Part shown: one piece after another, positions 291 to 34,864 of the stretch
Numbering within the stretch: the stretch's first letter is position 1
How the letters are laid out: every line of letters starts with the position of its first letter
Source of the DNA: Patescibacteria group bacterium
Lineage (GTDB): Bacteria > Patescibacteriota > Patescibacteriia > Patescibacteriales > BM507
DNA length: 52,555 bases
Direction of reading: 5' to 3'
NCBI GenBank assembly: GCA_027858235.1
Contig: JAQIDC010000016.1
Coordinates: 1-52,555, forward strand
Made by a program: the position numbers and the translations under genes
Notes under the pieces: generated by a model
What the model was told of the DNA's origin: nothing
Databases searched by the model: none
What the model saw: only the letters and a program-made list of their open reading frames with translations

Positions 291-410
291 CCCAATAGTT
301 CACAAAGAGGTCGTCCTTTCGGTGTTAATACATGGATAATAAAAATATCTTCAAAGTTGGGACTAAATTCCACACTTAAACCAAGAGGAAGACCAAAAAA
401 AGGTACCTGA
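291..410 (+). pseudogene. Remnant of REP-associated tyrosine (IS200/RAYT-like) transposase, C-terminus only
   Basis: A frame ending at TGA 408-410 reads RGRPFGVNTWIIKISSKLG, then PRGRPKKGT. The paired GRP-x-G and RGRPKK motifs are typical of the extreme C-terminus of REP-associated transposases. The frame is closed by TGA at 273-275, so the catalytic HUH domain is missing and only about 40 codons survive. The final codons run into the REP-like sequence at 398-417, as expected for a RAYT gene beside its own repeat. The family call is from memory of the motif. Confidence 0.6.
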
Positions 411-30495: not shown

Positions 30496-31023
30496 TTAAC
30501 GTTTTGACCATTGTGGAGCTTTTCTAGCTCTCTTTAGCCCTGGTTTCTTTCTTTCTTTTGATCTAGCATCCCTAGTCAGCCATCCTTTTGCTCTTAAGCT
30601 CGGTTTTAGTTCTACATTAATCAATAGTAATGCCCTTGAAATACCGTGTCTAGTAGCCTCTGCTTGGGCTTTTTTACCACCGCCATTAACAACTATCGAA
30701 AGATCGTAGTCAGCCATCAAACCAGCCATTTCAAGCGATTGTGTTGTGATATTTGCATAATTTTCAGTAAAATAGTCAACAAAACTCATTCCGTTAACAA
30801 GTGAATCACCGGCTCCTTTGTACAGTCTAACCTGAGCGACGGATGTTTTTCTTCTTCCAACCGCATAGGTATATCTTCCTTTAAATTTAATATCTTTAGG
30901 ATCTTTAATTTTAGTCTTTTTAGAAGTTTTTTCTTGGCTCAAGTCACTCTCTCCCTCTTCGAGATTTACTTTGTCAACGACTTCTACTTCTTCAGTTTTC
31001 TTAGTAGTGGTTTCTTTACCCAT
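30496..31023 (-). CDS. rpsI: Small ribosomal subunit protein uS9
   Basis: A 175-residue protein. The core (about 48-175) is standard uS9: GRYTYAVGRRKTSVAQVRLY, GGGKKAQAEATRHGISRALL and the ending PGLKRARKAPQWSKR, whose terminal KR reaches the P-site tRNA. An N-terminal extension of about 45 residues is acidic and Lys/Thr-rich (TTKKTEEVEVVDKVNLEEGE), absent from E. coli. It is last in the nine-gene operon, after rplM. Confidence 0.95.
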   Translation of the reverse strand: MGKETTTKKTEEVEVVDKVNLEEGESDLSQEKTSKKTKIKDPKDIKFKGRYTYAVGRRKTSVAQVRLYKGAGDSLVNGMSFVDYFTENYANITTQSLEMAGLMADYDLSIVVNGGGKKAQAEATRHGISRALLLINVELKPSLRAKGWLTRDARSKERKKPGLKRARKAPQWSKR

Positions 31024-31780: not shown

Positions 31781-32608
31781 TTATTCAGATTTCTTAGGTC
31801 TTCCTCTTTTTTTAGTAGGTTCATCGTCATTTGCTTCCTTAGCACTATCATCATCTGTAGCGACTTCTTCCTTCACTTTATCATCAACTTCTTCTTCTTC
31901 TTTCTCTTCTGTCTTGTCTTTTTTATCTTCAGATAAAGATGAAAATTGATCAATTAAAATTTCATTAGCTTGCCTAAATGCCTCAGCAGGAGTAATGGTT
32001 CCGTCTGTTAGGATATCAATCACTAATCTATCCCAATTGGTCATTTTACCGACACGTACGTTATCAATATCAATACCAATATTCAAAACTGGTGAAAAAA
32101 TTGAGTCTATTTCAAGATAACCAATTTCTGTTGTTTTCTCTTCTCTAGCTTCAATGGTTTCATAACCGATACCTTTCTTTACAAAAATTTCCATGTTTAT
32201 GTTTCCAGCCATATCAGTAAGTGTAGCGATATTTAAATCTTTGTTTACTACTTCAACACTTGAATCAGCTTTAATATCTGATGCCTTTACAATTTTTTTA
32301 CCGGCAACACTTAATGAAAGTTTTACAACTTCATCTGTAAACATCTTTATTCTTAACTCTTTAAGATTCATCAGAATTTCAAGGATATCTTCTTTTACAT
32401 GAGCAAGTGACATAAATTCGTGATCAACACCTTCAATTTTAACTCCAACTACTGCTGCTCCCTCAAGAGAAGATAATAATACTCTTCTTAGAGAATTACC
32501 AATTGTAATACCATAACCCGGAAAACAAGGTTCAATAATAACTTGACCTTTATTTTCTTGGTCCCCTTCTTTGAGTGAGATTTTATTTGGCAAGGCAATA
32601 TTTTGCAT
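31781..32608 (-). CDS. rpoA: RNA polymerase alpha subunit lacking the usual CTD, with AT-hook-like tail
   Basis: A 275-residue protein; typical RpoA is about 315-330. Residues 1-~225 are the alpha NTD used for dimerisation and polymerase assembly (FPGYGITIGNSLRRVLLSSL, the MSLAHVKEDILEILMNLKEL region, VRVGKMTNWDRLVIDI, TDGTITPAEA). After about residue 230, instead of the helix-hairpin-helix CTD that binds UP elements and activators, there is an acidic linker (EEKEEEEVDDKVKEEVA) and the ending KKRGRPKKSE. The RGRP core is an AT-hook motif, which binds the AT-rich minor groove. The order rpsD-rpoA-rplQ is standard. Confidence 0.95.
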   Translation of the reverse strand: MQNIALPNKISLKEGDQENKGQVIIEPCFPGYGITIGNSLRRVLLSSLEGAAVVGVKIEGVDHEFMSLAHVKEDILEILMNLKELRIKMFTDEVVKLSLSVAGKKIVKASDIKADSSVEVVNKDLNIATLTDMAGNINMEIFVKKGIGYETIEAREEKTTEIGYLEIDSIFSPVLNIGIDIDNVRVGKMTNWDRLVIDILTDGTITPAEAFRQANEILIDQFSSLSEDKKDKTEEKEEEEVDDKVKEEVATDDDSAKEANDDEPTKKRGRPKKSE

Positions 32609-33356: not shown

Positions 33357-33971
33357 TTATACTCTTCTAGGTTTTCTTGCTCTACAACCATTGTGAGGAA
33401 CCGGAGTGATATCCTTGATTGATGTAACATTTAAACCGTTTGAGTTAAGAGCCCTAACTGCAGATTCTCTTCCTGAGCCAACACCTTTTACGAAAACAGA
33501 AACTTCTTCAAGTCCTATCTCACGAGCTTTTCCTACTGCAATTCTTGTTATAATCTGTGCTGCATATGGTGTTGATTTTTTTGGACCCTTAAAGCCGGCA
33601 ACACCAGCCGATGCCCAAGAAATAACATTACCATTCAAATCAGTTAAAGTAACGATTGTATTATTATAAGTAGCTTTAACAAAAGCTTTCCCTGAAGTAA
33701 TTTGTTTTAAAATTTTCTTTTTCTTTTTCTTGGCTTTTGATTTCTTGGCATTTTCAGCTTTTTTCTTTTCAAGCTTAATTCTGATTTCCTCAGGTAGCTC
33801 TTCTAAGCCTTTAATTCCATTAACTTCTTCTTTAGAACTTTTAGTTAAATCAATTTCATCAACATCATCCTTCTCATCTTTTTTTGTAACAGCTTCATCG
33901 TCAGTAGTTTTTTTTGGATCTTTTTCTACTACCTCGTCTTGATTTTTTGCTGTTGTTTTATCATCACTCAT
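33357..33971 (-). CDS. rpsK: Small ribosomal subunit protein uS11 with long charged N-terminal extension
   Basis: A 204-residue protein. The core begins near residue 88 ([20 protein letters not shown]) and holds [38 protein letters not shown] and [15 protein letters not shown]. The first ~87 residues are an extension rich in D, E and K ([13 protein letters not shown], then a [10 protein letters not shown] run). Typical uS11 has about 130 residues, so this extension is unusual. It sits between rpsM and rpsD. Confidence 0.95.
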
Positions 33972-34618: not shown

Positions 34619-34864
34619 CTACAGTCTAAAAGTAATTCTCCCCTTACTTAAATCGTAAGGACTAATTTGAACTTTTACTTTATCTCCTGGTAGTAATCGA
34701 ATTTTAAACATTCTCATTTTTCCAGAAAGATGAGCTAAAATTTCATGATCATTTTCAAGGACAACCTTAAATGTGCCGGCTGGCCTGAGTTCAAGAATTT
34801 CTCCTCTCATTTCAATAAAGTCTTTTGAACTGTCTGTGTTGTTTTCTTTTGTATTATTTCCCAT
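34619..34864 (-). CDS. infA: Translation initiation factor IF-1
   Basis: An 81-residue OB-fold protein. [60 protein letters not shown] are the standard blocks. About 12 extra polar residues ([12 protein letters not shown]) precede the usual N-terminus. It is the first gene of the operon, about 80 bases downstream of a near-consensus promoter. Confidence 0.96.

Follow-up and report, generated by a model that had tools for sequence, protein, structure and literature searches.

The α subunit is a core component of nearly every bacterial RNA polymerase (RNAP), and its C-terminal domain (αCTD) is the textbook contact to upstream DNA and to activators. AT-hooks read the minor groove of AT-rich DNA and the αCTD does likewise, by different chemistry; a single AT-hook is usually a weak binder.

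CTD-less α subunits are described, without class resolution, in Hodgkinia/Tremblaya, Parcubacteria and microalgal chloroplasts; the sections that treat them present plain erosion and mention no replacement tail or AT-hook (PMC8321222). A term search of the Parcubacteria paper cited there returned nothing on RpoA or RNA polymerase (PMC4508563). AT-hooks attached to RNAP are known from Myxococcus xanthus CarD, which combines an RNAP-β-binding domain with an acidic segment and RGRP hooks; CarD binds the AT-rich minor groove upstream of a promoter, and its hooks are needed for full activity (PMC4374960). H-NS and Ros/MucR, with AT-hook-like loops and basic arms, also read the AT-rich minor groove by a short Arg-containing segment, as predicted for the protein described here, but theirs is a QGR-type loop inside DNA-binding regulators, not on RNAP (PMC5693944).

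The window, i.e., the entire 52,555-nucleotide stretch of DNA analysed, encodes an α subunit that ends in an acidic linker and one AT-hook. The features are, by coordinates and strand:

34619..34864, minus strand: infA, head of an alpha-operon-like cluster (sequence recognition)
31781..32608, minus strand: rpoA, RNAP α subunit without αCTD, 275 aa, ATG start
31925..32608, minus strand: complete α N-terminal domain (αNTD), residues ~1-228 (PF01193/PF01000, PDB chains, pLDDT)
31814..31924, minus strand: acidic, predicted-disordered linker, residues ~229-265 (alignment of relatives, pLDDT, charge scan)
31790..31813, minus strand: AT-hook KKRGRPKK, residues 266-273, followed by SE and the stop (AT_hook profile, conservation, codon saturation)
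30496..31023, minus strand: rpsI (uS9), downstream of rpoA (sequence recognition)

The plus strand of 31781-32608 carries stops throughout, and the rpoA reading frame lies on the minus strand; the first-pass annotation had left the strand unstated while giving correctly the coordinates, the full αNTD, the length of 275 residues, the acidic linker and the KKRGRPKKSE end. The αNTD matches PF01000 (RNA_pol_A_bac; E 7e-30) and PF01193 (RNA_pol_L; E 2e-18), and 60 PDB α chains align to RpoA over residues ~18-246. In the AlphaFold model, residues 10-225 mostly have a pLDDT of ~90, whereas residues 229-275 stay below 50. With both αNTD families present and an alpha-operon setting, RpoA still counts as an α subunit through its NTD, though a CTD-less one: PF03118 (αCTD) has no match in RpoA, nor anywhere in its own genome (1.43 Mb, 95.6% complete). 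The C-terminal sequence reads ...DDDSAKEANDDEPTKKRGRPKKSE, in which an acidic stretch beginning around residue 228 leads to the very end, TKKRGRPKKSE. Against the Pfam AT_hook profile (PF02178; cut-off 17.4 bits), this tail scores 14.0 bits, under the cut-off, in a whole-protein hmmscan and 19.2 bits, above it, in a scan of its own genome, which holds no other match above the cut-off. Other RGRPK strings in that genome are tails of transposase-like ORFs or short frames, and the idea of the hook as a common proteome-wide tail was rejected there; among 235 sampled ORFs of the same genome, RpoA alone has a basic C-terminal tail joined to a strongly acidic stretch, with a net charge of -9 over 20 residues.

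The gene order is that of a canonical alpha operon, infA ... uS13, uS11, uS4, rpoA, bL17, uL13, uS9 (names by sequence recognition). A TTGACA-17-TATAAT promoter without TG lies ~60-115 bases upstream of infA on the minus strand. Both uS11 and uS9 of the window bear long charged N-terminal extensions; that of uS11 (33357-33971, minus strand) comprises ~85 D/E/K-rich residues, and that of uS9 lacks the RGRP found in some class members.

Canonical bacterial α and the α of the window share the αNTD, the operon context and a flexible C-terminal extension, which here too would be placed toward AT-rich upstream DNA, but in the window's α the αCTD fold is missing and a single 8-residue AT-hook sits on a long acidic linker. 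The RGRP core and basic flanks are those of eukaryotic HMGA and the Pfam AT_hook family, here as one hook at the C-terminus of an enzyme subunit. The likeness to CarD is an RNAP-attached, disordered, HMGA-like tail in which an acidic segment precedes RGRP; CarD differs in being a separate factor on RNAP-β with four hooks, whereas the single hook here is part of core α. RpoA contains no CarD_CdnL_TRCF domain, and the Pfam scan gives only the αNTD families and AT_hook at meaningful scores. By analogy, then, the RpoA tail would work like CarD, and it is not a member of the CarD family. While αCTD loss in Parcubacteria is already published in the sections of PMC8321222 noted above, the AT-hook tail on α appears to be new: no description of it was found in the literature searched, which was mostly open-access and did not extend to bioRxiv preprints.

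Absence of the αCTD extends to the whole class. The window is placed in a Parcubacteria/ABY1-type class; the named lineages that the tree places in it are Falkowbacteria, Uhrbacteria, Kuenenbacteria, Veblenbacteria, Buchananbacteria and Magasanikbacteria, which we take to be the ABY1 group. A model of the CTD derived from relatives that retain it finds the αCTD in 0/163 class RpoA (53 from the window's order and 110 from the wider class). Outside the class it is mostly kept: PF03118 is present in 235 of at most 262 sampled Patescibacteria genomes, and the CTD is seen directly in RpoA of Nomura-, Kaiser-, Moran- and Azambacteria. The αCTD was lost in the ancestry of the class, and absence of the domain in relatives, which the first-pass annotation had named as a check, was borne out. 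Truncation by assembly error or frameshift was rejected because the CTD is missing from every class RpoA, each of which is closed by a stop codon. Further CTD-less lineages exist outside the class (eight CTD-state changes on the tree) and their tails are mostly lysine-rich; one CTD-less RpoA among them (G457, L305) has a hook, carrying EAPKKKRGRPKKVKLVE. None of 51 CTD-bearing named RpoA of related Patescibacteria has a hook, and a basic tail occurs in 37/50 CTD-less versus 1/51 CTD-bearing RpoA; this association rests on few independent losses, too few for a phylogenetic sign test, with eight pairs on all branches and two on supported ones.

The hook is widespread and recurrent across the class, not universal. 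The 163 tails divide into 44 strict hooks, 22 hook-like, 60 poly-basic, 24 acidic or other, and 13 with no tail; the strict RGRP form is present in 20/53 RpoA of the window's order, in several family groups, and in 24/110 of the wider class. RpoA of a same-genus genome (PKTH01000003.1, Parcubacteria bacterium BM507) also ends in KKRGRPKKSE, and most RpoA of the order that lack a strict hook end in poly-lysine. Neighbours show decayed hooks (KKRGKAKKA, KKRGRLKKS, KKRASKKKA), few beside the intact ones; sister lineages exchange tail forms, and the linker is hypervariable between aligned relatives, keeping its charge and not its sequence. Conservation of an RGRP tail in CTD-less relatives, the check first proposed, was borne out in part: the CTD is absent throughout the class but the tail varies, so the tail cannot be an obligatory stand-in for the CTD. 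The tree requires ~10 hook changes, to which an ancestral hook with losses and repeated gains fit alike; we favour an ancestral hook that was repeatedly lost.

Where present, the hook has a sharply bounded consensus, K[K/R]RGRP[K/R]K, in 48 RpoA; the effective number is slightly lower, since a few genomes entered twice by way of two collections (e.g., L002/L100, L078/L103, L128/L205). These were selected solely by RGRP near the C-terminus, so that the invariance of RGRP is not evidence. The flanks were not selected: K/R stands at -2, -1, +4 and +5 in 47, 48, 48 and 47 of the 48 hooks, whereas -3 and +6 are freely variable; RGRP lies 3-5 residues from the C-terminus in 41/48. Silent positions are saturated, with hook Pro codons spread as CCT13/CCG12/CCA12/CCC11 and six Arg codons in use. 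In one congener pair (L001/L002), the last ten codons differ by five silent and no replacement changes while the linker has been rewritten. Near-invariance of flanks that played no part in the choice, over saturated synonymous codons, points to purifying selection on the hook.

We propose that the selected AT-hook is a tether that adds a contact of RNAP to AT-rich DNA and is at most a partial substitute for the αCTD, a reading to which we give about an even chance. The α of many lineages, the window's included, carries one AT-hook on a disordered acidic linker of ~40 residues; with two α per RNAP, two hooks would hang on long flexible leashes by the upstream face. The location of the hook, its DNA binding and any effect on transcription are inferred. 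One possible role of the acidic linker is to keep non-specific sticking down, and the hook would provide a minimal αCTD-like contact to DNA only, leaving activator docking unreplaced. Because sister lineages lost the hook or never had it, it would be helpful rather than essential. The tail had been put forward as a minimal substitute for upstream promoter contacts: class-wide CTD absence and the selected hook speak for this, but not for an obligatory or promoter-specific role.

Upstream regions in 267 kb of the window's own genome bear on that role. TTGACA occurs 17 times (3.5 expected), TATAAT 52 times (28.7 expected) and the extended -10 TGnTATAAT 11 times (1.4 expected). The suggested reliance on extended -10 elements is seen as enrichment, but TTGACA, a normal -35, is used as well, so nothing here points to a weaker recognition of upstream elements. 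At 29 strong promoters, chosen by a score that itself rewards TG, the DNA upstream of -35 is no richer in AT (0.701 versus 0.712), while A/T runs of at least 5, one of two measures tried, occur there in 45% versus 29% (resampling fraction 0.049, n=29). The excess of A-tracts, which an upstream contact would predict, is marginal, and base composition is unchanged.

The main rival is a generic basic tether to nucleic acids or the nucleoid, on DNA or RNA, not directed to promoters and with RGRP exchangeable with poly-lysine, which we consider a real possibility though short of probable. The 60/163 poly-basic tails without RGRP and the swapping of forms between sister lineages fit it, as do the charged extensions on uS11 and uS9 of the window and the spread of the motif to other proteins. 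Yet a precisely bounded hook, whose flanks hardly vary while its codons are saturated, goes beyond what a merely basic tail would require, and RpoA hosts it far more often than any other protein. AT_hook matches number 15 in 111 genomes of the window's order, 12 of them at the RpoA C-terminus, and 42 in 191 class genomes, of which 18 fall in RpoA and six in N-terminal extensions of uS9, the remainder being scattered (a tally by hand, with some hosts assigned by coordinates); outside the class, five genomes have matches. RpoA is the most frequent host in order and class alike. Since the motif also occurs on uS9, which is RNA-bound, and on RecA, FtsK and PBP, it is no proof of a promoter function and is not promoter-specific.

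The uS9 hooks are of the KRGRPRK/KRGRPKK type (L280, L285, L292, L293, L295, L301), and in some of these six genomes they co-occur with an RpoA hook. By eye, the other hosts include a RecA-like protein with KKKRGRPKK at its C-terminus (L307), an FtsK-like protein with AKRGRPRK at its N-terminus (L291) and a PBP-like protein with RKRGRPRK near its N-terminus (L306). Two class members (L276, L283) encode proteins of >1000 aa whose N-terminal part bears 4-5 spaced AT-hooks; no further Pfam domains were found in the scanned part of the L276 protein. Transposase-like ORFs, REP-associated by eye, end in RSRGRPKKGT or KPRGRPKKGT, an AT-hook at the C-terminus (window 384-398, plus strand; L058/L329).

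A protein-docking or self-regulating tail, with no part for DNA, that folds onto its own linker or binds a partner such as sigma, NusA/NusG or a ribosomal protein would account for a basic tip beside an acidic linker in the same chain; this we regard as unlikely, as the linker keeps charge and not sequence, and RGRP is no generic basic patch but the core that defines minor-groove binding to DNA. A tail without function, left over from CTD loss as low-complexity sequence, agrees with its widely varying length and composition and with tail-less relatives, but is very improbable given flank invariance with codon saturation and the small number of decayed variants relative to intact hooks.

A wider scenario, which we hold to be less likely than not, is a class-wide swap of the folded upstream-binding CTD for an AT-hook on α as a minimal upstream-contact device; many lineages would since have lost the hook or let it decay, and it would have arisen too in at least one further lineage of CTD-less Patescibacteria. 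A class without the CTD, in many members of which a selected AT-hook occupies the same end, is a natural experiment on the minimal task of the CTD. Lineages with poly-lysine, bare and CTD-bearing α form a ready comparison series, and the hypothesis is directly testable, through two arginines, for transcription in uncultured, genome-reduced bacteria.

A separate CTD gene in the window's own genome was rejected, as the genome scan found none, and the tail reading, for which the first-pass annotation had named such a gene as contrary evidence, stands on this point. Orphan PF03118 domains occur in 13/111 genomes of the order; the congener (G001) has one such αCTD-like gene, which is sporadic and absent from the window's own genome. 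Five orphan-CTD proteins that were scanned (L060:1231-2367, L062:658-1698, L065:1465-2532, L064, L066) have no αNTD match, and two (L060, L062) contain Sigma70_r4 above the cut-off; the orphans are possibly trans-acting regulators. On contig C10 of the window's own genome, a 401-aa protein (L315:16339-17541) with Sigma70_r4 and HARE-HTH resembles a sigma/delta-type regulator.
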